Source of the DNA: Desulfuromonadales bacterium | GTDB lineage: Bacteria; Desulfobacterota; Desulfuromonadia; Desulfuromonadales; JAHYIW01 | Length of the DNA stretch: 57,456 bases | Reading direction: 5' to 3' | Assembly: GCA_029210745.1 (NCBI GenBank) | Contig: JARGFI010000013.1 | Location: 1-57,456, forward strand | Shown: positions 14,170-46,019 of the stretch, one piece after another | How the letters are laid out: each line of letters begins with the position of its first letter | How positions within the stretch are numbered: the first letter of the stretch is position 1 | Program-made: the position numbers and the translations under genes | Notes under the pieces: generated by a model | What the model saw: only the letters and a program-made list of their open reading frames with translations | Told to the model about the DNA's origin: nothing | The model's database searches: none

Positions 14170-15057
14170 TTATCCGCGTGGGTGATATTGTTCATGAATG
14201 CGCCGCAACCGCTCACGGGTCACGTGCGTATAAATCTGCGTTGTTGAAATATCCGCATGGCCAAGCAGCGTCTGCACCGCACGCAGATCAGCTCCATTTT
14301 CAAGCAGGTGGGTCGCAAATGAATGGCGCAATGTGTGCGGGGTAATGTTCTTGAAAATCCCCGCTTCGCGTGCGCGGCGCTTTATAATCTTCCAGAAGCC
14401 CTGGCGTGTCAAGCCATGTCCTGAGCGATTGAGAAATAAATAAAGACTGCCGGTACCTTTTTCCAGCTTTGGTCGAACCAACGTCAGGTAATCACGTACT
14501 TCCGTTATCGCCATCTCCCCCATTGGCACCAGACGCTGTTTGCTTCTTTTTCCAAATGCCGTCAGATAGCCAACGTCCAGTTGCAGGTCACCACACTTCA
14601 GACCGATCAGCTCCGATACCCGCAACCCTGTCGCGTAGAGGACTTCGAGCATCGCCCGATCGCGCAACGCCATCGGTTCATTCCCTTGAGGCGCGGCAAG
14701 CAACCGTTCGACTTCGGTTGGAGCCAGGGCATACGGTAACGAGCGCATACTTTTCGGCGCACTGACCTGAAGTGTCGGGTTGGTTGAGGAATGTTTTTCA
14801 GCGAGCAGGAATTTATGAAACATCCGCAATGAAACCAGAACTCGTGCCCGCGAGCGCGGCGCCAGCCCTTTGTCTTTGAGATAACCGAGAAAGCGTAAAA
14901 CAATCGCGGGGGTCACCTCATTGACGGTCGTTAGCGGGATACTGCCGAGGAAATCGAGATAGCGGGTCAGGTCACGCCCGTAGGCTTCCAGGGTGTTTTT
15001 TGACAGACCCTTCTCAACCGTCACATAATGAAGAAAAATATCAAGATACTGATCCAT
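14170..15057 (-). CDS. xerD: Tyrosine recombinase XerD
   Basis: XerD resolves chromosome dimers at dif with its partner XerC. The 295 residues have the SAM-like N-terminal DNA-binding domain and a catalytic domain with all six expected residues: Arg146, Lys170, His241, Arg244, His267 and nucleophile Tyr276. The HTLRHSFATHLLENGADLR and LLGHADISTTQIYTHV blocks are closer to XerD than XerC. No mobile-element signs flank it, so a housekeeping role is likely. The ATG at 15057 lies only five bases from the terminal repeat of a MITE-like element, and no good Shine-Dalgarno site is visible. The element may therefore supply its leader. Confidence 0.9.
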   Translation of the reverse strand: MDQYLDIFLHYVTVEKGLSKNTLEAYGRDLTRYLDFLGSIPLTTVNEVTPAIVLRFLGYLKDKGLAPRSRARVLVSLRMFHKFLLAEKHSSTNPTLQVSAPKSMRSLPYALAPTEVERLLAAPQGNEPMALRDRAMLEVLYATGLRVSELIGLKCGDLQLDVGYLTAFGKRSKQRLVPMGEMAITEVRDYLTLVRPKLEKGTGSLYLFLNRSGHGLTRQGFWKIIKRRAREAGIFKNITPHTLRHSFATHLLENGADLRAVQTLLGHADISTTQIYTHVTRERLRRIHEQYHPRG

Positions 15058-15061
15058 AACT

Positions 15062-15225
15062 AGGAGCCTGTCCGAGAATAAGGGCCGCAGCGAAAATCCA
15101 GAAGTTTGAGGGCAGATTTTAGCTCATTTGCAGCCTCATAGCCGTAGCTATGGGGCAAAAAGGAGCTGAAATATGAGCCAAACAGCTGGGTTTGCAGCCG
15201 GTCATTCATTCTCGGACAGGCTCCT
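15062..15225. mobile_element. MITE-like palindromic element between glnD and xerD
   Basis: A perfect 17-bp inverted repeat, AGGAGCCTGTCCGAGAA at 15062-15078 and its complement at 15209-15225, bounds 164 bp. The interior is a long imperfect palindrome centred on CATAGC-cgta-GCTATG (15137-15152). There is no coding capacity, and no clear target-site duplication. The size, terminal repeats and folded interior fit a miniature inverted-repeat transposable element moved by a transposase encoded elsewhere. The right repeat forms the last glnD codons; the left repeat ends five bases before the xerD ATG. Confidence 0.7.
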
Positions 15226-17929
15226 GGCTGGTCAGCTCAAGATCGGCATCAAGCCGACCGCTAAGGGCTTGACGCAATTCATCAAGACGCTCGTCAGAGT
15301 GAATCTTTTGATTGAAGATGTCAGTGACATAAAATGTGTCGGCGACCTGATCGACCTTGGTTGAAATTTTTGATACCGCGATGTATACGCCAAGATCCAG
15401 AAGCGTTTTGGTGATTTCGTACAGCAAACCGACCTTATCCTCCGTGTAAACCTCAACAATCGTGTGATCGACGGAGGTGGCATTATCGATGACAACCCGC
15501 GTCGGACGACGTGGCTTCGGTCGCTCACCACTGAAGAGACCGGCGCGTCTGCGTTCTACCAATCTATCAACACGTTCGCGTCCTTCAATCACGGCACAGA
15601 GCTGATCCTCTACTTTGCGCCATTTCCGCTTATCAACCAAAACATTATCATTTGGCCCCTGAACCTGAAGGATGTCGAGGGCAATTCCGTTTTTCAACGT
15701 ATGGACGCGCGCACCAACAATGTTAATCCCGTTTGCCGCAAGCACGCCGGTTATCAGGGAAAATAGACCCGGCTGGTCGAGCGTTGTCACCATCACGCTG
15801 GAGAATTGGTTCTGCACATCGTGGTCGAGCTTGATCGCAACCGACCGATCCCCCCGACTGAGCATAAAACGAAAATGTTCTGCAATGTCCAGCGAACGAT
15901 AACTCAGGATATAACGGGTACTGACGTGCTTGAGAAGATCACGGACCCGGCGCTCTTCAATCTCGCCATGGAGCCAGGTGAGAATGTTGCGCTTGCGATT
16001 ACGAACCTTCTCCGAGCGCCCTTCGAGGCGGAAATTACCTTGTTCCAGCACACGATAAGCCTTTTCATAAAGCTCTTCAAGTAGAAAGCCTTTCCACTCC
16101 GACCAGACTTCCGGCCCGACAGCGCGAACATCGGCATAAGTCAGCAGGTAGAGCATCCGTAAATTTTCACTCATTCCCATCTGCCGGGCAAAATCGATGA
16201 TCTGTTGATCGTCACTGAGATCCCGCCGTTGCGAAATATGTGTCATCAATAGATGATTTCTCACCAGAAATTCGATCCGCTGGGTGTTTTCCTTGCTGAA
16301 TCCGAAGCGCCGGGCAATCTTCGGGATGAGATCGGCGCCCTGATTGCAGTGATCGCGCCCCTCCCCCTTGCCGATATCGTGGAGTAATGTCGCCAGCAAC
16401 AGCAACCCTTTAAGTTCGACATCAGCAGCCACCTGAGTCAATCCCGGGCGCTCTTCACGACACTCACCACGTAATAGCCTGGCAATTTCTTCGATCGCGA
16501 AGATTGAGTGCACATCGACCGTGTAGATATGATAAGCGTCGTGCTGAACCTTACAATAAATGCGCCCAAACTCAGGAATAAAATGATTCAGGAAACGCAG
16601 ATGATGCATCGTCATCAACGTTGCAAAGATATTATAGGGATCGCGCAAGATCTGCATGAATCCTTCGGCCATCATCCGTGAACGACGTGCCTTGTCGTTG
16701 ATCCGCTTGAGGTTGTCACGAATCATCGACTTCAACGGCACGCTGAACTGGACGTTGTGTTGCTGGCCGAGACGGAAAGCGCGCATCATCCGCGCCGGTT
16801 CGTGCTCGAAGAGATCCTGTCGGGTTGCCCACAGCTCACCGCGCAGGACATAAAAACCCTCTTCAACAGTGCGCCGTCGTAAAAAGCCGACGATTTTATT
16901 CGGCTGGTCATACTGGTTGGTTGACATCGCGATCAACACCGAAGCCAGATGTTCCGTTTGCGTCGCCCATGAATAGTAATCCTGCATAAACTGCTCAACG
17001 GCGGGGGCTTTATGATTGTCCCGGTACCCCAGAAAGCTGGCAATCTTCTCCTGTTCATCAAAATGAAGCTGATCGTTTTTACGAGAGGAAAGGTAATGCA
17101 ACTCATTTCGAATGCGCCAGAGGCGGTCGAGCGACTCCTGAAACTCGTCAGCAGCTTTCTCACTGATAACACCGCTCGTCACCAGACCACGCAAAGATTT
17201 TGCCTTGAACTTGCTTCGCGCGATCCAGAGTGCAGAATGCAAATCGCGTAATCCCCCCTCGCTCTCCTTGATATTCGGTTCAAGCAGATAGACTGAAGAC
17301 CCGAATTTTTGCCGACGGGCCTCATATTCAGCAAGTTTTTCCGCGATGAAACGACGACTGTTCGCACCGAAAACCGGCTTCAGAACCAGCCGCTCATAGA
17401 TTGACATCAAGTCCTCATTCCCCGCCAGATAACGCGAATCGAGCAAGGCTGTCCGCGCGGTCAAATCAGCTCCGGCCATTTCCAGGCAATCGTCGACGGT
17501 ACGCACGCTATAGCCGACATCCTGCTTCAAGTCCCAGAGCAGATAGAGCAGTCGTTCCGCAATCTGTCTGGCAACCACCTGATCTTTCCCTGAATAAAAA
17601 AACAGCAGGTCAAGATCTGAGCGTGGATTCAACTCGGCACGACCGTAGCCACCGATGGCCAGCAGCAGACAATCCGCCCCGGAACCGCCCAGGTCATTGG
17701 CAACTCCACGAAACAGGGAACGTAACAATTCATCGTAAGTCTGCGTTAATTCACTGACAACCAGCGTTCCGCTCGCACCGTTGCGATGCAGTGCACGGAT
17801 CCGCCGGGTATGATAAGCAAGATATTCCTCCGCCGCCTTGCGGAGCAACGTCTGCCGCTCGTCATAGCAGATGTGATGTTCATTCAGTAATGATTCGGGG
17901 AAAAAAGAAAGATGGTCATGACTCATCAT
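15206..17929 (-). CDS. glnD: Bifunctional PII uridylyltransferase/uridylyl-removing enzyme GlnD
   Basis: GlnD uridylylates PII when glutamine is low and removes UMP when it is high. The 907 residues show the full order: nucleotidyltransferase with GGYGRAELNPRSDLDLL near 93-109, a PII-UTase helical linker, an HD domain with LLATLLHDIGKGEGRDH near 500, and two ACT glutamine sensors near the C-terminus. Its substrate PII is encoded at 26674-27012. The ATGA overlap with the upstream amidase gene suggests coupling. The final residues QEPVRE are encoded by the terminal repeat of the neighbouring MITE-like element, with the stop directly after it. The native C-terminus may have been slightly altered. 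Confidence 0.95.
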   Translation of the reverse strand: MMSHDHLSFFPESLLNEHHICYDERQTLLRKAAEEYLAYHTRRIRALHRNGASGTLVVSELTQTYDELLRSLFRGVANDLGGSGADCLLLAIGGYGRAELNPRSDLDLLFFYSGKDQVVARQIAERLLYLLWDLKQDVGYSVRTVDDCLEMAGADLTARTALLDSRYLAGNEDLMSIYERLVLKPVFGANSRRFIAEKLAEYEARRQKFGSSVYLLEPNIKESEGGLRDLHSALWIARSKFKAKSLRGLVTSGVISEKAADEFQESLDRLWRIRNELHYLSSRKNDQLHFDEQEKIASFLGYRDNHKAPAVEQFMQDYYSWATQTEHLASVLIAMSTNQYDQPNKIVGFLRRRTVEEGFYVLRGELWATRQDLFEHEPARMMRAFRLGQQHNVQFSVPLKSMIRDNLKRINDKARRSRMMAEGFMQILRDPYNIFATLMTMHHLRFLNHFIPEFGRIYCKVQHDAYHIYTVDVHSIFAIEEIARLLRGECREERPGLTQVAADVELKGLLLLATLLHDIGKGEGRDHCNQGADLIPKIARRFGFSKENTQRIEFLVRNHLLMTHISQRRDLSDDQQIIDFARQMGMSENLRMLYLLTYADVRAVGPEVWSEWKGFLLEELYEKAYRVLEQGNFRLEGRSEKVRNRKRNILTWLHGEIEERRVRDLLKHVSTRYILSYRSLDIAEHFRFMLSRGDRSVAIKLDHDVQNQFSSVMVTTLDQPGLFSLITGVLAANGINIVGARVHTLKNGIALDILQVQGPNDNVLVDKRKWRKVEDQLCAVIEGRERVDRLVERRRAGLFSGERPKPRRPTRVVIDNATSVDHTIVEVYTEDKVGLLYEITKTLLDLGVYIAVSKISTKVDQVADTFYVTDIFNQKIHSDERLDELRQALSGRLDADLELTSQEPVRE

Positions 17930-19659
17930 TTTGCAGCAATCACTTTGTATGAACCGGCATATTTACGGATGCCACTGACAATTCCGCTGATCGCATGGTT
18001 CTGGTAGACCTGATCGGTCAGCCGTTTCTCACCGCGATGATTACTGATAAATGCCACCTCGACCAGAACTGACGGCATTGTCGCTCCGAGCAGGACATAG
18101 AAAGGTCCCTGCCGCACGCCAAGATCGCGTAACGGCGAGTAATGGCGGGTCAGTTTACTGACCAGTGAAGATTGGATATCGTTTGCCAGGCGACTCGATT
18201 CATTCAACTTTGCATTGGCCATCAGATCAAAGAGGATCAGTTCCAGGTCTCCCACCTGCTTCAGGGATGTCCCGTTCTCCCGCGCGGCAACTGCAGCGGC
18301 TTTGTCATTTTTGGAAAAGTTCAGATAATAGGTTTCAACCCCATGCACTTTGCGATTTTGGTTGGCATTGGCATGAATGGAAATGAAGAGATCGGCATTC
18401 ACCTGATTCGCGATTGCGGTACGTTCCTCAAGACGTAGATAGACATCCCGATCACGCGTTAAAATAACCTCGCATCCAATCTCATCTTCCAGGCGCTTAC
18501 CCAGTTTTTTCGCGAAGTCAAGGACGACATTTTTTTCAAAAACCCGATTGGGCCCGACCGCACCAGGATCCTTGCCACCGTGACCGGCATCGATAACAAC
18601 CCGGTTCAGCACAGGTTCAGCCCCCGCGAGTGCTGGCGGTTTTTTCGTTATCTCCGTGCGTGGGACTGCGGATCTGCCGTGCTCATTCAGCAGTACGGCA
18701 ATCGAGTCATCCGGGGATGTTTTTCCGGCTTGTTCGGGATCTTCTTTCGAAGGTTCTTTAATCGTGGTTCGCACGGTATCATTCCCCTGCACGTCAACAA
18801 CGATTCGATACGGTTCCTCAAGGGCAAACACCTTGTAATCCTGAAAACTGTCCAGATCGATAACCACCCGTACGCAACCGTCTTTAGGCTTTCCGGTCCG
18901 GATACGGCGCAACAACCCATCGTCAACCGTGGTGGCATCGACAATCTCGGCTCCCAATGTTGAGTCTTCAAAATCGATATACAATCGCGGCGGAGCCCCT
19001 TGGGTCAGATTGCCTTTGAGAAAATTGGTTCGATACTTGACCGTGGTACTTAAATCAAGAACGACGCGCGTATACCCCGGGTTGGACCAGAAACGAATCG
19101 CCTCCAGGGTTGCTTTCCCGGTGGACTTGTTACTCTTTTCCCGGGCATCCATCAACTGCGGGGCAAAATGCTTCAGCCGGGTAACAGCCCGCCGTGCCTC
19201 AGCCGCCATGTCGCTGCGGGGGAGCTCCTCAACAATGCGCTGGTAACGAAGAAATGCCTCAGACGGTATCAGCAACGGCTGTTCAAGAAGTTTTCCCGCC
19301 GTCATCAGCGCATCATCGGCAAGATTGCTCTGCGGGTAGGCTGTCGCCATCTCATCATAAGATTCCACCGCCCGCTCCGCATCACCACGCAAGCGTGATA
19401 TCGCGTAAAGCTGTTCACGTGATGAACCGACCATGAAAGCCGCATCGGCGCCGCGCGAGCTGTCCGGATAGCGTTTATGCACGACAGTGAAAAGGTCAAT
19501 CACCTTCCCCCAGTTATCGCGATACAGTTTTTTTTGTGAAGACTCGATCAAACGATAATAGGCGTCACGCGCTTTCCCGTAAGCTGTTTCTGCCGGGGCA
19601 ACCGCGCCAACCGGGGAGCTGAAAAAAATGAACAGCAGAATCAGCAGTAAGCAGCGCAT
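17926..19659 (-). CDS. N-acetylmuramoyl-L-alanine amidase with AMIN domain
   Basis: This periplasmic zinc amidase cuts the bond between MurNAc and L-Ala to split septal peptidoglycan. The 577 residues start with a signal peptide (MRCLLLILLFIFFSSPVGA). A TPR-like helical part (about 25-165) comes next. An AMIN domain (about 185-290) targets the enzyme to the envelope. Amidase_3 follows from about residue 350. Zinc-site motifs are VIDAGHGGKDPGA, the Glu in NRVFEKNVVLDFAK, and ISIHANAN. PSVLVEVAFISN carries the catalytic Glu. The N-terminal TPR extension is longer than in E. coli AmiC. AGGAG lies ten bases ahead of the ATG, inside the end of mutS. Confidence 0.92.
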   Translation of the reverse strand: MRCLLLILLFIFFSSPVGAVAPAETAYGKARDAYYRLIESSQKKLYRDNWGKVIDLFTVVHKRYPDSSRGADAAFMVGSSREQLYAISRLRGDAERAVESYDEMATAYPQSNLADDALMTAGKLLEQPLLIPSEAFLRYQRIVEELPRSDMAAEARRAVTRLKHFAPQLMDAREKSNKSTGKATLEAIRFWSNPGYTRVVLDLSTTVKYRTNFLKGNLTQGAPPRLYIDFEDSTLGAEIVDATTVDDGLLRRIRTGKPKDGCVRVVIDLDSFQDYKVFALEEPYRIVVDVQGNDTVRTTIKEPSKEDPEQAGKTSPDDSIAVLLNEHGRSAVPRTEITKKPPALAGAEPVLNRVVIDAGHGGKDPGAVGPNRVFEKNVVLDFAKKLGKRLEDEIGCEVILTRDRDVYLRLEERTAIANQVNADLFISIHANANQNRKVHGVETYYLNFSKNDKAAAVAARENGTSLKQVGDLELILFDLMANAKLNESSRLANDIQSSLVSKLTRHYSPLRDLGVRQGPFYVLLGATMPSVLVEVAFISNHRGEKRLTDQVYQNHAISGIVSGIRKYAGSYKVIAAK

Positions 19660-36334: not shown

Positions 36335-37132
36335 TCAAGTATCGCTCAGTTCGAATTTGACCGCACTGTCAGGAACATCCAGTTCAAAACGTTGCGCGGG
36401 AATGATGCCATTCACGGTCGGCGAATCAAATTCTATCAGCACGCTACTTTGGGCCGCCGGAAATTTGAGATGAATAACGGAGGCAAAGCCTTCCGCCGTG
36501 AAAGCGGAATATTCGACCGTCAACAGGATCTGATCCCCTCGCCACAAGCGCCCGGTAGTCAGCATTTTCTGCTGATTAAAGCGTAATTCCTGTGACAAAC
36601 GGTCAGCGGACAAAGTCACGACGTGATGACCGTCAGCATCGATCTCCGCGTGAAACGCCGCGCGACCGATCGACGGTAAACGTCCCAGCAACAGCGCGAC
36701 AAAATCGCTTCCAGCAAGAGGAATGTGCGTCAAACGATAAAAACTTTCAACCGAGGCGGGACTTTTGAAATAACGATTTTCAGCGGGGAGAAAATAGCTG
36801 AGCGACTCCCCGTCGTTCACCAGAATATAGACCGGGCGGCCGAATAAACTGTACAGTTCAGCTCTTAATTTATCGGGAGATTCTGCAAACAGGGCATGAT
36901 TGCCGCTGAAGCTCTTGTCACCCATCGTGATCCTGATATCAGCCAGACCGGTAACGGAGGTGAAGGTCGTGAAGTACTTTGCAAAATCCTCTTGCAGGAG
37001 TTCTTGTTCAAAAGCAGGTGCTCCAGATGTCGAAAACAGTGATGAACATCCGCCCAGAAGCCCGCCGACAAACACCACCAGAAGAGTGAAAATGCCGCAC
37101 CAATAACGAATCATCCTTGAACCATGAACCAT
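36335..37132 (-). CDS. LolB/DUF4292-like outer-membrane lipoprotein
   Basis: This 265-residue lipoprotein has a signal peptide with lipobox LGGC and then a twisted beta-sheet sequence like the LolB/LppX superfamily (DUF4292). Landmarks are TSVTGLADIRITMGDKSFSG, PDKLRAELYSLFGRPVYILVNDG and the closing FELDVPDSAVKFELSD. LolB receives lipoproteins at the outer membrane, but DUF4292 members have not been shown to do so in this group. The start ATG at 37132 shares one base with the TPR gene stop (TGATG), with GGAGG ten bases ahead. The pair TPR lipoprotein plus LolB-like is translationally coupled. Confidence 0.75.
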   Translation of the reverse strand: MVHGSRMIRYWCGIFTLLVVFVGGLLGGCSSLFSTSGAPAFEQELLQEDFAKYFTTFTSVTGLADIRITMGDKSFSGNHALFAESPDKLRAELYSLFGRPVYILVNDGESLSYFLPAENRYFKSPASVESFYRLTHIPLAGSDFVALLLGRLPSIGRAAFHAEIDADGHHVVTLSADRLSQELRFNQQKMLTTGRLWRGDQILLTVEYSAFTAEGFASVIHLKFPAAQSSVLIEFDSPTVNGIIPAQRFELDVPDSAVKFELSDT

Positions 37133-38841
37133 CAGGGGAGTGCCTCCAGCTTCTGCCGGATACGTTTTGTCTCGGCGGGGACACGCGCAATAATTTTCTC
37201 GTAGAGGGCTCGCGCCCGCTCCCCGTCTCCCATTGCCCGACAAATATCGGCAAGGTGCTCAGTGACAACCATGTCATCAGGAAGTTCAAGAATGACTTTT
37301 TCCAGTGCACGCCGCGCTTCTTCGAGGCGTCCCGACTTGAAATAAATCCATCCTATCGTGTCGGCAATATGTGCTCCCTGATTCAAGGCATAGGCCTCTT
37401 GTGCCATCCGCAACGCCTCTTCGAGCATTATCCCTTCTTCAGCATAAGAGTAGGCAACGTAATTGAGTGCATCCGCATGTTTTGGCTCAAGGAGCAGCAC
37501 TTGTTGCATCACCTCACGCGCCCGATCACGCTGCTTCATCTGTTCCAGCACAACCCCCTGGTGATAAAGCAGATCTACCGTTTCGGGGAAACGTTCCAAC
37601 CCCTGATCCAGAATGGCGATTGCGGCAGAATAATCCCCCTCGCTTTCATACACTGACGCCAGCGCTGAATAAACTTCAGCTCTGGCATCGGGGTGAGCAA
37701 TAATCTCCCGGAAAGTCGCAATGGCAGCATCGCGCTGCTGCAAGACGTGATAGAGGAATCCCCGGTGATAGAGGGAATCGAGATAAAGTGACGAGTCTTC
37801 CGGAATCGAAACAAATGCGTCAAGCGCCTCACTGTAACGTTCGTCTCGTTCAAGCGCCGACCCGTAATAGTAACGAATTTCAGTCAAATCGGGATTAACT
37901 GCAAGAATGGTTGCAAACGAAGCCGCTGCAGCCTGGTAATGATCGTCCTCAATTTCCAGCAGACCAAGTTTTCGATGCGCCTCAAGATCAAGCGGGGCTG
38001 CGACGAGCAATAATTTCAATTCTCTTTTCGCCTCACTGCGTAAATCTCGTTCAATGTAGAGGTCGATCAGTTTCCGCCGCAAGGGGGTGCTGTCGTCGGT
38101 GGAATTGATTGCTGTGTTTAACAGTCTCTCGGCAGCAGCAAATTCCCCGCGCTCATTCAACATCATAGCCAGATCAATAACCGCCGGTTCGTAATCGGGC
38201 TGATCAGTTAAAATTTCGCGCAGCACCTTTTCCGCCGCAGCTGGCGAATTTTCTTTCAAAAGGATTCGCGCCAGGACCATGCGTCCGGTCAGGGTAGCAG
38301 GATTTAATTTGAGCAGACGGCGTAAAGTCGCTTCAGCCGCTGAAAAGTTTTCCTGTTTGTCATAAGCAAGGGCGAGATGAATATAAGGCTTTTCGATCTC
38401 AGGGGACAAGATCACCAGGCGCTCAAAGTAACGCACCGCGTCTTGATAATGACCGGTTCGAAAAGCAAGCGTGCCTAGTTGCCATAAGGTTTCGAGGTTG
38501 TCGGGATCCAGTTGATCGACAATTTCCGCTGCCTCCAGGGCGGCTGGATAAGCTTCGCTGCGAAGGGCCAATTCAATAAAAAACTTACGCAGATAAATTG
38601 ACTCTGGATCGGCATCCACGGCCTGCTGCATCGACCTGAACGCGGCTGACAAGTCGCCACGGGCAAGTTGCAGCCGAGCCCTGCCATAAAAATAAAGACT
38701 CTTCGACTCAGGTGCATCAAAAGCAGAGTGATAACTGTCGGAAACAACGGTATCAGCGGAATGTCCACCAACGATCAAGGGGAGAGCACAGCCGGACAAA
38801 AACAAGAGGCCTGTGAAAAATAAATAAACGGATTTTGACAT
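37132..38841 (-). CDS. TPR-repeat lipoprotein
   Basis: This 569-residue protein carries a lipoprotein signal (MSKSVYLFFTGLLFLSGC, lipobox LSGC at 15-18) followed almost entirely by tetratricopeptide repeats, about a dozen, with W/LG/Y/A/P positions recurring every 34 residues (for example LETLWQLGTLAFRTGHYQDAVRYFERL). Such proteins scaffold envelope complexes; no enzyme domain is present. It heads the leftward gene run. Its Shine-Dalgarno is weak. The divergent gap 38842-39063 must carry promoters for both sides and shows no gene. Confidence 0.85.
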   Translation of the reverse strand: MSKSVYLFFTGLLFLSGCALPLIVGGHSADTVVSDSYHSAFDAPESKSLYFYGRARLQLARGDLSAAFRSMQQAVDADPESIYLRKFFIELALRSEAYPAALEAAEIVDQLDPDNLETLWQLGTLAFRTGHYQDAVRYFERLVILSPEIEKPYIHLALAYDKQENFSAAEATLRRLLKLNPATLTGRMVLARILLKENSPAAAEKVLREILTDQPDYEPAVIDLAMMLNERGEFAAAERLLNTAINSTDDSTPLRRKLIDLYIERDLRSEAKRELKLLLVAAPLDLEAHRKLGLLEIEDDHYQAAAASFATILAVNPDLTEIRYYYGSALERDERYSEALDAFVSIPEDSSLYLDSLYHRGFLYHVLQQRDAAIATFREIIAHPDARAEVYSALASVYESEGDYSAAIAILDQGLERFPETVDLLYHQGVVLEQMKQRDRAREVMQQVLLLEPKHADALNYVAYSYAEEGIMLEEALRMAQEAYALNQGAHIADTIGWIYFKSGRLEEARRALEKVILELPDDMVVTEHLADICRAMGDGERARALYEKIIARVPAETKRIRQKLEALP

Positions 38842-39063
38842 TTTAAATTGCAGCCCAACTTCAAAGCATTTATGTTCTTGAAATAACTGTCATCAAACTA
38901 TCATTTCGCCTTTAAGTGGTCAAACTATCTTTTAGTTCTTCATCCGCTCTGAATCGACTCAAACCAGTAACTTCTGCCAAATTCAAGAAGGGTATCGACA
39001 CCGGGGAAAAGCTCCATTATACTTGGCCGTAAAGTGAATTGTCACAATCCATGAGAGTCTGAC

Positions 39064-39309
39064 ATGAAACGAATCAACAAGGAACAGTTGCGTGATGCGT
39101 GGATTCTGTTTTTCATCCTTGGCATCATCATGCTGAACTATCCCTTTCTGGAGATATTCAACAAAACCGTGCAAGTCATGGGGATTCCCCTGCTGGTTGC
39201 ATATTTTTTCATTGGCTGGCCAATCTCGATCCTGGTCATCTTTTTCTTTTCTCGTTCACTGACCACCAAAGGGGATAAGAAAGAAAAAGACCCCCTTGAG
39301 AGCTTATGA
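39064..39309 (+). CDS. Small two-helix membrane protein paired with symporter-like sensor
   Basis: This 81-residue protein has two hydrophobic helices (about 12-31 and 38-62) and a charged tail rich in Lys/Asp/Glu. The layout matches the small DUF3311/DUF4212-type subunits that precede sodium:solute symporter genes. Its ATG follows GAG ten bases upstream, and its stop overlaps the next start by four bases (ATGA), so the two products are probably made in equal amounts. It may be an assembly or regulatory subunit of the fused symporter-phosphatase. Confidence 0.75.
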   Translation: MKRINKEQLRDAWILFFILGIIMLNYPFLEIFNKTVQVMGIPLLVAYFFIGWPISILVIFFFSRSLTTKGDKKEKDPLESL

Positions 39310-42300
39310 TTCCAACTGGCATAGTCACGACAATCACTTTTTTGTATTTTGTCCTGCTCTTCTCGGTCGCCTACTACGCGGACCAGCGCCGCAAGAGCGA
39401 TCGCAGCCTGATATCAAACCCCAACATCTACGCCCTTTCGCTGGCGGTCTACTGCTCGTCCTGGACCTTCTATGGCAGTGTTGGCCGGGCCGCGACCAGC
39501 GGTCTTGATTTCATTGCCATTTATGTTGGACCAACGCTGATAGCGTTCGCCTGGTGGTTTCTGCTACGCAAAATGGTGCGCATCAGTAAAGAACAAAATA
39601 TCGTCACCATTGCCGACTTTATCTCCAGCCGTTATGGAAAATCAGTTTTTCTCGGTGCGGTTGTGACAATCTTCGCGATTATCGGCATCACCCCCTACAT
39701 TGCCCTGCAACTAAAGGCCATTGCCCACACCTATAACCTGATCGCGTTATCGCCCCCTTCAGCAGTTGACGACTATGCACTCCAATTTCCGACTTTCATC
39801 GATACCGCCTTGTTCGCAGCCATCATCCTTGGCGTGTTCGGCGTCCTGTTTGGAGCCCGAAACCTTGATGCTACGGATCGTCACGAGGGGCTGGTTGCGG
39901 CGGTTGCGTTCGAATCGCTGGTTAAACTGGTGGCCTTTTTGTCTGTCGGTATTTTTGTCACTTACGGGATATTTGACGGGTTCGGGGATATTTTCAGTCG
40001 CTTTCTTGAACGCTTTCCAGAACGCGCCGATCTGCTTTTGTTGAATACCGAAAAAGTCCCCTACTCAACCTGGTTCACCCTTACCTTTGTCTCAATGATG
40101 GCCTTTATGTTCCTGCCCCGCCAGTTCCATATTATGGTCATCGAAAATTCGCAGGAAGACCACATCAAATCGGCCATGTGGCAATTCCCGACTTACCTCT
40201 TTCTGATCAATCTTTTTGTGATTCCGATTGCGCTGGGTGGTTTGCTCCTGTTTGGCGGAGACAACTCAGCGGCAGATTACTTCGTGATTTCCATTCCGTT
40301 GCAGGCCAATCACCCATGGCTGGCACTCTTCGTCTTCATCGGCGGATTTTCCGCGGCAGCGGGAATGGTCATGATTTCTTCGGTATCCCTCGCCACGATG
40401 ATTCTCAACCATCTGGTCATGCCGATTATCTTGCGGATTCCGTCCCTGGCGAGCAAGAACCTTTCGCGCACCTTGATCAATATCAAGCGCAGTGCGATCA
40501 TGGCTGTTGTCCTGATCGGTTATATCTATTACAAAATCATCGGCGACTCCTACGCACTGGTTAATATCGGCCTGATCTCTTTTATTGCCGCAACCCAGTT
40601 TGCCCCGGCGATGATCGGCGGTATCTACTGGCGGCAGTCGACCCGATTCGGAGCAAGTACCGGCATGATTGCGGGATTTACTGTCTGGTTCTATACCTTG
40701 CTGATCCCGGCGTTCTGCCGCTCAAACTGGTTGCCGAATGATATCATCGACCATGGATTATTTGGCATCACCTTGCTCAAACCGCTTGAGTTATTTGGCC
40801 TGAGCGGTTTTGATATGTGGACCCATTCTCTTTTCTGGACGTTGTTTTTTAATCTCGGCTGTTATCTGACCATTTCATTACTGTCCACTCCGAGTGCAAC
40901 CGAAAGAGAACAAGTCCATAAATTCGTCGATGTTTTTTCAACCCGTGTCCCCCAAATTGAACGTAAACGTTTCAACAAAGCCCCCTCCCTGCTCGAATTT
41001 GTCGAATTAATGACCAAATTTATCGGTGAAAAACAAGCTCATGCAGCGATCTCCGAGTATCTTGGAGATCGTGACATTGACGAAAAAGGCAGCGTTTCCG
41101 AGAATGAGTTATTAACCCTGAAAAGCTTTGCCGAACGCACCCTCGCCGGTTCTGTCGGCGCCGCACCGGCCAGAATCATCATTGACAACTACCTTGTCAC
41201 CCGGGGCAGTACCATGGAAGACGTCTTCGATATTTTTGGTTCGGTCACTCTCAGCCGTACCAGTAGTCGGGAGCAACTCAGTGTCCTCTACGAGTCCGCC
41301 CGTGCGGTTTCCGGGGGCGACAACTTAAATGAAATCCTGGACAACATTTTACACATCTTGCGTCAGCAGTTTAAATTTGACCTGTGTACGATCCGGCTGC
41401 TGGACGAAGAACGTTCACTGCTGACCGTCATCGCCCAGGATGGCATGAGCACTGCGCATTTCGATAATGCGGACCGTGATTTGACGATGAACAATTATGT
41501 CGGTGCGACCTTCTTGACGAATAAGGAAACCGTCATCAACGATGTCGAGTTGATGAAACGATCACAATTTATCGGCATTATCCAGCGTGAAGGTATCAAG
41601 TCGTTTGCCCACATGCCGATTACCATCGAAGGCCAGCCGATCGGCGTCCTTTCAGTTTTTTCAAAAAGTGTCAAAGGAATATTCACTCCCGAGTTTATCG
41701 AACTCTTCCACAGCCTCGCCGTACAGATTGGTATCGCCAAACGCAATGCGGATCAAACCGAGCACCTCATTGCAGCACGTGAGCAGCGAAAAGAGTTGCA
41801 GATCGCCAAAACCATCCAACTCGGGTTACTCCCCTTAAAAGCCCCTGACATTGCAGGGATTGACCTTGCCGGTATCTGCGTGCCCGCCCGTCAGGTGGGG
41901 GGGGATTACTACGATATTCTCCCGACGGATCGTGATACTATCGACCTCGTGATTGCTGACGTCTCGGGCCATAATGTCGGCGCGGCACTGATCATGGCGG
42001 AAACCAGAACATTCATTCATTCTAAAATCAATGAGAATTACCCCTTGTCGGTCATGCTTAATCAGCTGAACGAATTTTTTCATGATGATTTGTCCCGCGC
42101 CGAACTGTTTGTCACCATGTTTTACCTTCGTTATACCCTTGGCAGGAGAACCCTGACCTACACCAACGCCGGGCACAACAAGCCTCTGCTCTGGAGAAAA
42201 GCCACTGAAGAATGCGAATACCTTGATACCGAAGGAATGATCCTGGGGATCAAGAGAAATGTTATTTTTGAAGAACATCAGACAGTCATGCAGCCGGGAG

Positions 42301-42515
42301 ACATCCTCCTCCTTTACACGGACGGAATTGTTGAAGCAGAAAACTCACAAGGGGATTTCTTTGGTATCGAAAGACTGAGCGCACTGCTCAATGAGCACCA
42401 TACCTTACAGGCACAACAAATGATTGATACAATTATGCAACAGGTCAGACTTTTTACCGGGCTGCATTCTTTTGTAGATGATATCTCACTCTTGATTATG
42501 AAAGTTACAGACTGA
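39306..42515 (+). CDS. Sodium:solute symporter-like sensor fused to GAF and SpoIIE-type PP2C phosphatase
   Basis: This 1069-residue membrane protein has an SSS (SLC5-like) domain with about 13 helices to about residue 535 (SWTFYGSVGRAATSGLDF, IGITPYIALQLKAIAHTYN). A helical STAC-like linker (about 545-650), a GAF domain (about 665-810) and a SpoIIE/RsbU serine phosphatase (about 835-1068) follow. The phosphatase keeps the metal-binding Asp residues in GGDYYDI, IADVSGHNVGAALIM, LLYTDGIVEA and VDDISLL. The SSS domain resembles those of CbrA-type sensor kinases, so it should sense or transport a solute and drive dephosphorylation of the STAS protein encoded next. Solute identity is unknown. Confidence 0.88.
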   Translation: MIPTGIVTTITFLYFVLLFSVAYYADQRRKSDRSLISNPNIYALSLAVYCSSWTFYGSVGRAATSGLDFIAIYVGPTLIAFAWWFLLRKMVRISKEQNIVTIADFISSRYGKSVFLGAVVTIFAIIGITPYIALQLKAIAHTYNLIALSPPSAVDDYALQFPTFIDTALFAAIILGVFGVLFGARNLDATDRHEGLVAAVAFESLVKLVAFLSVGIFVTYGIFDGFGDIFSRFLERFPERADLLLLNTEKVPYSTWFTLTFVSMMAFMFLPRQFHIMVIENSQEDHIKSAMWQFPTYLFLINLFVIPIALGGLLLFGGDNSAADYFVISIPLQANHPWLALFVFIGGFSAAAGMVMISSVSLATMILNHLVMPIILRIPSLASKNLSRTLINIKRSAIMAVVLIGYIYYKIIGDSYALVNIGLISFIAATQFAPAMIGGIYWRQSTRFGASTGMIAGFTVWFYTLLIPAFCRSNWLPNDIIDHGLFGITLLKPLELFGLSGFDMWTHSLFWTLFFNLGCYLTISLLSTPSATEREQVHKFVDVFSTRVPQIERKRFNKAPSLLEFVELMTKFIGEKQAHAAISEYLGDRDIDEKGSVSENELLTLKSFAERTLAGSVGAAPARIIIDNYLVTRGSTMEDVFDIFGSVTLSRTSSREQLSVLYESARAVSGGDNLNEILDNILHILRQQFKFDLCTIRLLDEERSLLTVIAQDGMSTAHFDNADRDLTMNNYVGATFLTNKETVINDVELMKRSQFIGIIQREGIKSFAHMPITIEGQPIGVLSVFSKSVKGIFTPEFIELFHSLAVQIGIAKRNADQTEHLIAAREQRKELQIAKTIQLGLLPLKAPDIAGIDLAGICVPARQVGGDYYDILPTDRDTIDLVIADVSGHNVGAALIMAETRTFIHSKINENYPLSVMLNQLNEFFHDDLSRAELFVTMFYLRYTLGRRTLTYTNAGHNKPLLWRKATEECEYLDTEGMILGIKRNVIFEEHQTVMQPGDILLLYTDGIVEAENSQGDFFGIERLSALLNEHHTLQAQQMIDTIMQQVRLFTGLHSFVDDISLLIMKVTD

Positions 42516-42585
42516 AAATCCATAACTATGTTATTATTGAGAGGGTTTGAATAAACGTGTCAGAAAGTATACCGAGGAGCAAAAA

Positions 42586-42921
42586 ATGGAACTGATTCTT
42601 GACGAAAAAAACGGCATCGTCACCATCACCGTAGAAGAGGAACGCCTTGATGCGCACAACAGCGGCGAGCTGAAAACCAGAATGACCAGCCTGTTCGAGG
42701 ATGAGAAAAGTAACATCATTGTCAACCTCAAGGCTGTTCGTTTTGTTGATTCTTCAGGGCTTGGCGCCCTGGTCTCAGGCTTTAAAAACGCGAGTGCGCG
42801 CAATGGCAACCTGAAGCTCTGTGGACTCCAGCCACAGGTTAAATCGATGTTCGAATTGACCCGGCTGCATCGAGTCTTTGAAATATTCACCGACAGTGAA
42901 GAAGCCTTCAGCAGTTTCTGA
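42586..42921 (+). CDS. STAS-domain anti-sigma factor antagonist (RsbV/SpoIIAA-like)
   Basis: This is a 111-residue single STAS domain. The phosphorylatable serine lies in VRFVDSSGLGALVSG, Ser56 or Ser57. In partner switching the unphosphorylated form binds the kinase/anti-sigma protein. The ATG at 42586 has GAGGAG six bases upstream; the 42547 frame start does not. It lies 70 bp after the phosphatase gene and 14 bp before the kinase gene, giving a phosphatase-antagonist-kinase order. The direct target is likely the next gene product, and the dephosphorylating enzyme the preceding one. Confidence 0.92.
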   Translation: MELILDEKNGIVTITVEEERLDAHNSGELKTRMTSLFEDEKSNIIVNLKAVRFVDSSGLGALVSGFKNASARNGNLKLCGLQPQVKSMFELTRLHRVFEIFTDSEEAFSSF

Positions 42922-42935
42922 TTTTCGGGTAAGTG

Positions 42936-43361
42936 ATGCGTGAACGTATCGACATTGACATCAAGGTGCCAAATCAGACCCGCTATTTAAGCTTGATCGG
43001 CAAGATTGGCGAGGATGTGGCACGGACCATCAAAAGATTCGATGGTGACAGGGAGAAGCTCGCCTACAATGTCAACGTCGTACTGACCGAGGCAATGGCA
43101 AACGCCATTCTCCACGCCAACCGGGATACACTGGATCCCGAAGTACACGTCCGGATATCAGTTTTGAACCGGGTGTTGACCATTGAGGTGTTTGATCAGG
43201 GGCAGGGTTTTGATATCGACGCACTGCCCGCCCATAACCCGGACAGTTGTCATGAGTCAGGGCGCGGTATTTACATTATGCGCTCCCTGATGGATCGTAT
43301 CAGCTATAAAAAATCGAAGAACGGCTATGTGCTCGTCATGGTTAAATCGCTTTCTTCCTGA
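42936..43361 (+). CDS. RsbW/SpoIIAB-like anti-sigma serine kinase
   Basis: This 141-residue GHKL ATPase has an N-box with NVVLTEAMANAILHAN, a G1 box VFDQGQGFD, and a G2-like box GRGIYIMRSLMD. It should phosphorylate the STAS protein and, in its free state, hold a partner such as a sigma factor or other output protein. The ATG at 42936 directly follows an in-frame GTG; either could start translation. No sigma factor gene adjoins, so the output partner is encoded elsewhere or is not a sigma factor. It ends 36 bp from a convergent gene. Confidence 0.9.
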   Translation: MRERIDIDIKVPNQTRYLSLIGKIGEDVARTIKRFDGDREKLAYNVNVVLTEAMANAILHANRDTLDPEVHVRISVLNRVLTIEVFDQGQGFDIDALPAHNPDSCHESGRGIYIMRSLMDRISYKKSKNGYVLVMVKSLSS

Positions 43362-43397: not shown

Positions 43398-44030
43398 TCA
43401 CAACCAACAACCAATCAATGATTCAAGCTCTTTATGGTGAGTGACACAACATTCGCCGGGGAAACTGGTCTGATACCCGACAAAACGAATCTTTGCACGT
43501 TGCGCAGCGAGTTGATCAAGGTGTGAATCACCAATAAACACCAGTTCATCCGGGTCAATTTCCAGTTGTCGTGAAACCAGCTGCAACATATCGGGACAAG
43601 GTTTGGGCCGGGCAACATCGTGGCTGGTGACCACCGCTGAAAAATAGTGTCGTAACGCGAAATGTTCGAGAATTTCGTGCATACTCGCGCCGCGATTGGT
43701 CGCCACAGCCAACCGAAACCGCTTCGTCAAGGTGGTCAACGCTCCTTCAATCCCCGGCTCCAGCTGCATGAACGGCATAAATTGCCGAAAACCGAGTGTC
43801 GCTGCAAAATCAAGCGCGGCGGCAACTCGCTCCTGGCCGAGCAATTCGGCAAAAACGACCGGGCTTGCAGCCGTATGACACAGGTAGGCGCGTTGCCGGT
43901 CTTCCTCATCAGCCCGAACCGGTGCGACGCCAAAATATTCCAGCACAGTATTATAGTAGGCAAGATTGGCGGCACGACTTTCAAATAAAACGCCGTCGCA
44001 ATCGAAGACCACACCACGCGTCACAGGCAT
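43398..44030 (-). CDS. HAD-superfamily phosphatase
   Basis: This is a 210-residue HAD-IA hydrolase of phosphoglycolate-phosphatase type. Motif I is VVFDCDGVLFES (nucleophile Asp and acid Asp), motif II VATNRG, the motif III region is RPKPCPDML, and motif IV is FIGDSHLD. The start ATG at 44030 overlaps the lgt stop by one base (TAATG); the frame extends upstream through lgt but that part is not coding. A phosphorylated small molecule is the expected substrate, unspecified. It is co-transcribed with lgt. Confidence 0.88.
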   Translation of the reverse strand: MPVTRGVVFDCDGVLFESRAANLAYYNTVLEYFGVAPVRADEEDRQRAYLCHTAASPVVFAELLGQERVAAALDFAATLGFRQFMPFMQLEPGIEGALTTLTKRFRLAVATNRGASMHEILEHFALRHYFSAVVTSHDVARPKPCPDMLQLVSRQLEIDPDELVFIGDSHLDQLAAQRAKIRFVGYQTSFPGECCVTHHKELESLIGCWL

Positions 44031-44812
44031 TATTTCGCTCCCCGTTGACAAACGTAATAAATCCCGGCAACGCCTGTCAGCATCATCGGCAAAGACAACC
44101 ACTGCCCCATACTCAATCCCGCGGCAAGAAGTCCCAGATGGGCGTCCGGCTGGCGAAAATATTCTATGCCGAAGCGGCATAATCCATACCCGAAAAGGAA
44201 CGCGAAACAAACAAAACCCAGCGGGAAATGGCGTCGATGAAACCACCACAGCAGGAGAAAGAGGAACACCCCTTCAAAAAATGCTTCATACAATTGACTG
44301 GGGTGTCGCGGCACCGGCCCTGCCCCAGGGAAAACCATCCCCCATCTAACCGTCGTTGTTCTTCCCCATAATTCAGCATTAATAAAATTGCCGATGCGCC
44401 CGAAAAACAGGCCAATCGGTGCAGCACCAGCGAGCAGATCACCGACCATCAACCGCGACAACTTGCGCCGCCAGCAAAAGATCATCCCGGCAACAAAAAC
44501 CCCGAGAAAACCTCCATGAAAGCTCATGCCCCCTTCCCATACTGCAAACATCCTCAGCGGATTAGCCAAAAAATAAGGCAAATTGTAGAACAACACATAA
44601 CCGAGCCGACCACCGACAACAACACCAATGATACATTGAAAGATAAGATCCCCGACATCATCTCTGGACAGCGCAAAATTACGCACGCGAACCAGATAGT
44701 TTATGTAGAGGTATCCACCGAGAAAACCGCACAAGTACATCAGACCGTACCAGCGCACAGCCAATGGGCCGAGGCGAAAAATTATCGGATCAAAGTGGGG
44801 ATAGGAAAGCAT
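44030..44812 (-). CDS. lgt: Prolipoprotein diacylglyceryl transferase
   Basis: Lgt attaches diacylglycerol to the lipobox cysteine of prolipoproteins in the inner membrane. The 260 residues have seven hydrophobic segments, the signature GRIGNFINAELWGR (essential Arg/Asn region), GGMSFHGGFLG with the conserved His near residue 98, and HPSQLYEA. AGGAGG lies four bases before the ATG. Several lipoproteins encoded in this window (TPR, LolB-like, binding protein) are its expected substrates. Confidence 0.96.
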   Translation of the reverse strand: MLSYPHFDPIIFRLGPLAVRWYGLMYLCGFLGGYLYINYLVRVRNFALSRDDVGDLIFQCIIGVVVGGRLGYVLFYNLPYFLANPLRMFAVWEGGMSFHGGFLGVFVAGMIFCWRRKLSRLMVGDLLAGAAPIGLFFGRIGNFINAELWGRTTTVRWGMVFPGAGPVPRHPSQLYEAFFEGVFLFLLLWWFHRRHFPLGFVCFAFLFGYGLCRFGIEYFRQPDAHLGLLAAGLSMGQWLSLPMMLTGVAGIYYVCQRGAK

Positions 44813-44838: not shown

Positions 44839-45777
44839 TTACGTCAGTGCGCGAATTTTACGCAACAAGTCGGACATATCAGCTGGTATCGGTGCCGTGC
44901 AGTTTAACATTTCACCGCTGACCGGATGAGCCAGGGCCAGGGTTTGTGAATGCAACATCGTGCGTGGCACATCTTGCTCGTGCCATGCAACAGCCCCTCC
45001 ATAAAAGGAATCGCCCAGAATCGGACACCCGGTTTCAGACAGATGAACCCTGATCTGGTGAGACCGACCGGTCAGAATTTTTACTTCAAGCAACGCCGTG
45101 TCGGCAAATTGTTCAATCACGCGGTAATGGGTAACCGCTTCCTTGCCACCGTACGATACCGATTTTACACGGTTTGCATCGCGTGTTCGCGCCAGGTTGG
45201 AAACGATCTCCCGTTCCGCAGTCGGCGGCTGTCCCGCAACCAGCGCCAGGTAGCTTTTTTCCACCCGTCGTTCAGAAAATGCCTGGGTCAATGGCCGATG
45301 TGCCCGAACATGAGTCGAAAAAAGAATCGCCCCGGAAGTTTCCCGGTCAAGGCGCTGAATCATCCCCAATTCGGGCTTCCTCTGCGCATGCCGACTGTGG
45401 TCAGTGCCGAGCAAAGTCAATACCGCCTCGTAAAGTGTCCCTTTATAACGTGCGGCAGTTGGTTGTGTTTCGACCAGTGGTGGTTTCGACAAAACCAGCA
45501 AATACTGGTCCTGATAGAGAATATCATCCGCCGCGACGCGATATGGAATGAGGGGTAACCCGTCGAGTGTGACCTCAAGCACATCACCGCAAACAACGTC
45601 CACACCACATTTCCTGATTCGTCGTCCATTGTGACTCACACCGCCGATATCAATAATCTTGCGCAGGAATGTGCGGCTCAATTCCGGTTCAACAGCCGGC
45701 AGGTATTGATCCAGGCGCATCCCGGAATGGCTGGCATCAACGCAGCGTCGATATGTTTTTCTTGTTACATCCGCCAT
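44839..45777 (-). CDS. RluA-family RNA pseudouridine synthase
   Basis: This 312-residue enzyme isomerises uridines in rRNA or tRNA. An S4-like domain (MRLDQYLPAVEPELSRTFLRKII) precedes the catalytic domain, with nucleophile Asp in IQRLDRETSGAILFS. LLEVKILTGRSHQIRVHLSETG is the conserved RluA C-motif. ATG 45777 is chosen because family members start near the S4 domain; the frame runs 40 codons upstream, across the likely 6S RNA promoter region. It cannot be assigned to RluC or RluD by eye. It lies 26 bp upstream of lgt on the same strand. Confidence 0.9.
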   Translation of the reverse strand: MADVTRKTYRRCVDASHSGMRLDQYLPAVEPELSRTFLRKIIDIGGVSHNGRRIRKCGVDVVCGDVLEVTLDGLPLIPYRVAADDILYQDQYLLVLSKPPLVETQPTAARYKGTLYEAVLTLLGTDHSRHAQRKPELGMIQRLDRETSGAILFSTHVRAHRPLTQAFSERRVEKSYLALVAGQPPTAEREIVSNLARTRDANRVKSVSYGGKEAVTHYRVIEQFADTALLEVKILTGRSHQIRVHLSETGCPILGDSFYGGAVAWHEQDVPRTMLHSQTLALAHPVSGEMLNCTAPIPADMSDLLRKIRALT

Positions 45778-45853
45778 AATGTACCGAAAAAAGATTAGCC
45801 ACAGATTGACTTGCAGCTTGACCATGATATCGTGGCTATGAAGCGCCAACAAC

Positions 45854-46019
45854 TTCGGGATGGATGATTGGCATAGGAGCATGACCAACACACCCAAGCA
45901 GGTTCAAATCAAGGAATGGTGAGCAAGCCCGTAACAAAGAACGGGACGCCTTAAGTTCCTCTACCTGGGCCTAAATGTTGCGCAGGGTCATGATTACATG
46001 ACCGTCGCCATCCCGAAAT
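45854..46019 (+). ncRNA. ssrS: 6S RNA
   Basis: This segment folds as a long rod. The ends TTCGGGATGG and CCATCCCGAA pair, then CATGACC (45880-45886) with GGTCATG (45986-45992), then an apical hairpin of CCCG/CGGG near 45926-45943. The inner GGTGAGCA...GCCTTAA signature, flanking the apical stem, is that of 6S RNA, which binds sigma-70 holoenzyme by mimicking an open promoter. Length of about 165-180 nt fits. TTGACT-N17-TATCGT at 45806-45834 is a possible promoter, so the 5' end could be a few bases earlier. A terminator follows at once. Confidence 0.85.

Follow-up and report, generated by a model that had tools for sequence, protein, structure and literature searches.

The window (the whole stretch of 57,456 nucleotides analysed here, from a Desulfuromonadales bacterium) contained four co-directional genes between 39064 and 43361. 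They formed a compact operon for a two-helix membrane protein, an SLC5-STAC-GAF-SpoIIE/PP2C fusion, a STAS protein, and an RsbW-type kinase. The fusion probably acts as a transceptor phosphatase that sets a partner switch of RsbV/RsbW type, with a small carboxylate, most likely acetate, as its input. The genes and domains of the operon were as follows (aa, amino acids).

39064..39309, + strand: small subunit with two transmembrane helices, 81 aa, of CbrX type to judge from position and topology
39306..42515, + strand: SLC5-STAC-GAF-SpoIIE/PP2C fusion, putative transceptor phosphatase, 1069 aa (Pfam, 10ed_A match, AlphaFold2, Foldseek)
39315..40928, + strand: SLC5 (SSS) transporter domain, about aa 4-541 (10ed_A match, AlphaFold2 helices, Foldseek)
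39924..39926, + strand: codon of Lys207, counterpart of CbrA K196 at the Na2 site (ortholog alignment)
40989..41201, + strand: STAC, four helices, aa 562-632 (alignment to the 10ed STAC, AlphaFold2)
41322..41738, + strand: GAF domain, aa 673-811 (Pfam E = 5.7e-17; 2qyb, TMt 0.87)
41688..41828, + strand: long linker helix from GAF to PP2C, aa 795-841 (AlphaFold2 model)
41841..42506, + strand: SpoIIE/PP2C domain with all metal Asp motifs, aa 846-1067 (Pfam E = 1.1e-52)
42586..42921, + strand: STAS (RsbV-like) protein, 111 aa, with a DSSGLG phosphoserine motif (Pfam STAS E = 1e-21)
42936..43361, + strand: RsbW-like serine kinase, about 141 aa, with intact N and G boxes (HATPase_c_2 E = 7e-23)

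In the proposed mechanism, the SLC5 domain, held together with the CbrX-type subunit, would bind a small carboxylate, most likely acetate, and would be proton-linked or ligand-gated, not Na+-driven. Its conformation would be relayed by STAC, GAF, and a helical linker that dimerises, switching PP2C on or off. Active PP2C would dephosphorylate the STAS protein, the RsbW-like kinase would phosphorylate it, and its phosphorylation state would decide whether the kinase or STAS itself holds a partner encoded elsewhere. Phosphorylation of STAS by the kinase, removal of the phosphate by PP2C, and control of PP2C dimerisation by the linker helix (PMC12143880) are well-founded expectations from knowledge of these families. 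We infer action on the STAS protein of this very operon, gating of PP2C by SLC5 via STAC, the direction of that gating, acetate as the signal, and the nature of the target.

Domain Architecture of the Fusion Protein

Pfam analysis of the fusion detected SpoIIE (1e-52), GAF_2 (6e-17), and, with a weak score, SSF (5.3e-8). Residues 10-632 aligned directly with the CbrA SLC5-STAC chain solved by electron cryomicroscopy (10ed_A, E = 5.5e-76), which removed the doubt left by the weak SSF score; this alignment extended through STAC. It is clear from these matches and the AlphaFold2 model that the symporter-type domain, STAC, GAF, and PP2C occur in one chain of CbrA-type kinship, as had been read from the sequence in the original prediction. 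The C-terminus is SpoIIE/PP2C, not a histidine kinase. The acidic residues of its GGDYYD, DVSGH, TDG, and DD motifs were invariant in 42/42 orthologs. The phosphatase has kept its metal ligands and the N-terminal domain is of SSS type, so neither of these conditions for refuting the original prediction holds.

An AlphaFold2 model was built from the 42 class orthologs, with a predicted local distance difference test (pLDDT) of 81 and a predicted template modelling score (pTM) of 0.55; the low pTM makes the placement of the domains uncertain. In the model, a transmembrane transporter was followed by four bundled helices at 562-632 (STAC), GAF, a 47-residue helix at 795-841, and a PP2C fold. Foldseek related the transporter to NIS (TMt 0.72), SMCT1 (0.74), and SGLT, the GAF domain to 2qyb (0.87), and the PP2C domain to those of RssB, RsbX, and SiaA. 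The 2qyb entry, described at deposition as a putative G. sulfurreducens membrane protein, shares 58-70% identity with the GAF domains of PP2C fusions from Geobacteraceae and therefore probably comes from an ortholog of the fusion. PPM phosphatases are switched via a coiled-coil linker, and the coiled-coil linkers of RsbU are comparable to the long GAF-PP2C helix of the fusion (PMC12143880).

The small upstream gene overlaps the fusion by four bases (ATGA at 39306, stop over start). Every order relative with sufficient flank had it at position −1, in agreement with the tiny coupled membrane subunit predicted earlier, and hydropathy predicted two helices for its 81-aa product. A similar two-helix small open reading frame (ORF) stood 5' of most relatives with histidine kinase output. 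CbrX itself forms a helical hairpin that attaches to the SLC5 domain of CbrA (PMC13022988). From its position, overlap, and topology, the small gene is typed as a CbrX-type two-helix subunit common to the kinase-output relatives. It gave no Pfam or NCBIfam family match and no match to PDB chains, and DUF4212 (TIGR03647), considered as its identity, did not match.

Conservation and Origin of the Operon

Synteny was complete in the order: the four genes stood together in 29/29 relatives with enough flanking DNA, which bore out the claim that a STAS antagonist and an RsbW-like kinase belong to the same operon. The DSSGLG motif of STAS and the N and G boxes of the kinase were invariant (28/28). 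This synteny, together with the invariant phosphatase (42/42), kinase, and STAS motifs, excludes a chance arrangement. A wider search covered 146 genomes (fusion threshold E<=1e-60), with members such as Geothermobacter, Desulfuromonas, Malonomonas, Geobacter, Geomonas, and Citrifermentans, from which the class was named as Desulfuromonadia. The fusion matched in 132 of them, mostly at full length, and the kinase in 140, as a single copy in all but two. One ortholog (L006, G020:C1:2788806-2792012, in a single-contig 4.7 Mb genome) carried an in-frame TAG at residue 689, in GAF, where relatives mostly have Q or K; a sequencing error, a broken gene, or read-through would each give this picture.

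Outside the class, the match to the fusion usually stopped at residue 640-840, and the loci read there ended in histidine kinases. In a tree of 91 SLC5-STAC sequences, made by a quick method that left the long CbrA branch unsure, all PP2C-output proteins fell into one clade (Shimodaira–Hasegawa-like approximate likelihood ratio test, SH-aLRT, 99), nearest to the SLC5-STAC-GAF-kinase proteins of the phylum. As there is one PP2C clade, histidine kinase output outside the class, and a shared small upstream gene, the simplest history from these sequences is a single exchange of output, from kinase to phosphatase. The transporter was apparently joined to the serine phosphatase once, long ago.

Fourteen genomes lacked a fusion match. 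Eight of them made up family f3, which kept the kinase; of the other six, five had no kinase match and one (G109) only a distant one. In the f3 loci read (L097-L102), STAS and kinase remained at the syntenic site beside the TPR gene, and phosphatase and small subunit were gone. An APH/AAA_33 neighbour was considered as an alternative f3 input, but it also stands beside intact operons and is probably a bystander. This fusion-less family that keeps STAS and kinase appears to be the kin of Pelobacter carbinolicus, and we take it to include Pelobacter (Syntrophotalea) carbinolica. P. carbinolicus does not oxidise acetate (PMC3543383), and we count this loss in favour of an acetate-fed switch.

Some genomes (e.g., G011) held extra fusion copies with no STAS or kinase nearby, so several sensors may feed one switch. 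The two extra genes of G011 (L063:7086-10295 and 14997-18188, − strand) lie about 5 kb apart, with DUF3482 and DUF2868 proteins between them.

Transporter Pocket, Ion Coupling, and Ligand

In CbrA the Na2 site is occupied by K196, and the histidine ligand lies near Y51, S53, W55, A56, F71, Y75, F248, and F406 (PMC13022988). The counterpart of K196, Lys207, was present in 41/42 class orthologs and in every histidine kinase group examined. Canonical Na2 sodium ligands were missing from the fusion, whose transmembrane motif SAAAGM carries G353 and M354 at positions where, by comparison with PutP, Ser/Thr ligands would be expected. Because of the conserved lysine at the Na2 position, Na+ coupling is unlikely, and sodium was rejected as the coupling ion. 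The symporter-like domain of the original prediction thus stands as an SLC5 fold and falls as a Na+-coupled one; 'symporter-driven' can mean at most a proton-linked or purely ligand-gated transceptor.

Across the 42 orthologs the pocket residues were Y49, T/S51, W53, T54, F69, Y73, S/A263, and F426. The pocket departed from the histidine pocket of CbrA by A56 to T and F248 to S/A, each in 42/42 orthologs. Histidine is an unlikely ligand on account of these two changes, which are common to the relatives linked to acetyl-CoA synthetase. The majority pocket residues of the fusion were identical to those of kinase relatives lying beside acetate-CoA ligase (acetyl-CoA synthetase) and TIGR03647/TIGR03648 acetate-type symporters. 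Known SLC5/STAC kinases control the use of acetate (CrbS) and pyruvate (RpuS) (PMC9100948, PMC5715377). The shared pocket and this known control point to a short carboxylate, with acetate the first but still tentative candidate. The SLC5-STAC kinases (L155-L192) were often found beside CBS/DUF294-type and DnaQ-type exonuclease proteins, and sometimes beside acetyl-CoA synthetase and an acetate-type symporter.

Several observations weigh against an acetate-fed transceptor phosphatase. The pocket is common to the whole non-CbrA part of the family and so excludes histidine better than it proves acetate, and acetate genes adjoined 0/58 of the PP2C-output loci examined. The f3 STAS-kinase pair must have another input or role, because it survives without the fusion. 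None of the compared loci had a partner gene adjoining the operon, and none travels with it. The cytosolic part of CbrA, freed of its SLC5 domain, still autophosphorylates and activates a target (PMC7918813), which leaves GAF as a possible reader of the true ligand.

This last point opens another explanation, in which SLC5 does no more than anchor the protein in the membrane or transport a solute, and an intracellular signal read by GAF sets the phosphatase activity. In favour of this, GAF was present throughout the PP2C clade and in the nearest histidine kinase relatives of the phylum. However, the pocket residues, Lys207, and especially STAC were under strong constraint: mean pairwise identity was 81% for STAC, the highest in the chain, against 72% for SLC5, 65% for GAF, and 59% for PP2C. 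We regard sensing by GAF alone as rather unlikely.

STAS, Kinase, and Possible Target

The kinase matched HATPase_c_2 (7e-23) and NCBIfam RsbW (5e-15, below the equivalog cut-off). It was the only stand-alone RsbW-like protein in the genome, where the other matches were proteins of 403-765 aa, and the operon STAS was likewise the only stand-alone STAS. The fusion should therefore control the only RsbV/RsbW-type switch of the genome. Besides the fusion there was one further SpoIIE-type phosphatase (272 aa, G000:C24:35864-36448, L002), apparently soluble, which could act on the same STAS protein. A plasmid search for the kinase gave only distant matches.

Three sigma-70-family factors, named by reading their sequences, were present in the genome (RpoD, RpoS-like, and RpoH-like). 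It had no SigB/SigF-type factor, the dedicated sigma factor of an RsbU/V/W switch. Control of sigma-S is then one candidate output: the kinase would sequester RpoS and dephosphorylated STAS would release it, as in CrsR-CrsA or HsbR-HsbA. RpoS is a known binding partner of RsbW-like domains in Shewanella and Pseudomonas (PMC6482189), and two genomes lacking RpoS (G147 and G150) also lacked the kinase. Against this, five genomes, including the complete single-contig G071, kept the kinase with no RpoS match, and the kinase-less G070, G073, and G129 retained RpoS. RpoS was thus rejected as an obligatory target, and its control by this switch is improbable. The sigma-factor target suggested originally is unproven, as RpoS is dispensable for retention of the kinase; the partner is indeed missing from the locus, as was also predicted, its neighbours being housekeeping in kind.

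In a second candidate output, STAS itself would bind a partner other than a sigma factor, for example a cyclase or an anti-sigma factor, in the manner of SypA and HsbA. STAS was by far the best conserved soluble subunit (81% mean pairwise identity vs. 66% for the kinase), which fits an output carried by STAS, and STAS-only outputs are known (PMC8256260; PMC6482189). Its high conservation may, however, come from its two enzyme interfaces alone, and the lack of a travelling partner gene also speaks against it. We hold this output to be possible, short of an even chance. A fuller version of the transceptor phosphatase proposal, in which the class swapped the two-component output of an acetate-sensing transceptor for a serine phosphatase and extracellular acetate sets a STAS-based switch on a non-SigB/SigF target, is doubtful as a whole.

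Comparison with Known Systems

Among the closest known systems is CbrXA/CbrB of Pseudomonas (PDB 10ed), which shares the SLC5 fold, the Na2-site lysine, STAC, and a translationally coupled two-helix upstream subunit with overlapping stop and start. The fusion differs from it in having PP2C instead of a histidine kinase, GAF instead of PAS, the changes A56 to T and F248 to S, and no response regulator. CrbS/CrbR and RpuS/RpuR, SLC5/STAC kinases of acetate and pyruvate use, belong to the same sensor family, and the kinase relatives beside acetyl-CoA synthetase and acetate-type symporters shared nine of the nine majority pocket residues examined; these systems work by phosphotransfer to a response regulator, whereas the fusion would act by serine dephosphorylation.

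On the output side, RsbU/RsbV/RsbW and SpoIIE/SpoIIAA/SpoIIAB have the same set of PP2C, STAS substrate, and GHKL kinase with intact motifs, and the helical linker is RsbU-like. Here, in contrast, the operon encodes no sigma factor, the genome has none of SigB/SigF type, and the input has a transporter fold. The RpoS switches CrsR-CrsA and HsbR-HsbA also pair STAS with an RsbW-like domain in Gram-negative bacteria without SigB, but they carry REC, PP2C, and kinase in one protein, whereas here the kinase is a protein of its own and SLC5-STAC-GAF serves as the sensor. Actinobacterial SSS-GAF-PP2C_SIG-HATPase proteins, listed but not studied in a 2021 review (PMC7918813), likewise have SSS, GAF, and PP2C in a single chain, to judge by the domain listing alone, and differ by having the kinase in that chain.

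The fusion is thus not categorically new, and is less new than the original prediction had implied. Both SLC5/STAC kinases and switches of the RsbU type were known before, and the 2021 review had already listed SSS together with GAF and PP2C in Actinobacteria (PMC7918813). Literature searches found no paper on an SLC5-STAC-GAF-PP2C fusion in Geobacter. Relative to the literature searched, the new points are a conserved STAC-type member found across the class, in which STAS and kinase are separate proteins, its origin by output exchange, the lysine replacing sodium, and the separable loss in f3.

The comparison describes a class-wide natural exchange of output on one transporter-sensor: the SLC5-STAC(-GAF) module carries a histidine kinase in most sampled lineages and, in Desulfuromonadia, a serine phosphatase. 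This lends support to an earlier proposal (PMC12143880) that kinases and phosphatases can exchange the sensors linked to them by coiled coils, and it provides a context for 2QYB, an orphan GAF structure from Geobacter sulfurreducens. In the acetate-oxidising relatives of Geobacter, the signal output driven by nutrient sensing is probably of a different kind. Acetate is the main electron donor of the class. If it is the ligand, the operon would directly tie gene regulation in Geobacter and Desulfuromonas to the donor that fuels respiration of metals and electrodes.

Gene Starts, Promoter, and Flanking Genes

Ortholog comparison put the start of STAS at ATG 42586 and that of the kinase at ATG 42936, with GTG 42933 as an alternative kinase start. 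Upstream of the operon a sigma-70-like promoter, TCGACA-17-TATACT, was seen at 38995-39023. A conserved promoter TCGACA-17-TATAMT (20/45 loci) is not claimed, as in relatives these letters resemble the coding end of the upstream gene. That gene is of APH/AAA_33 type in the relatives and has no ORF in the window. Scans of the window for tRNA genes and Rfam families gave no match.

The operon is flanked by a divergent TPR gene (37132-38841, − strand) and a convergent HAD-type gene (43398-44249, − strand). TPR, ABC-type substrate-binding, HAD phosphatase, Lgt-like, and RluD-like genes recurred as its neighbours. The Lgt-like (44030-44812) and RluD-like (44839-45897) genes, both on the − strand and named by reading the sequence, accompanied the operon at 29 and 23 compared loci, respectively.

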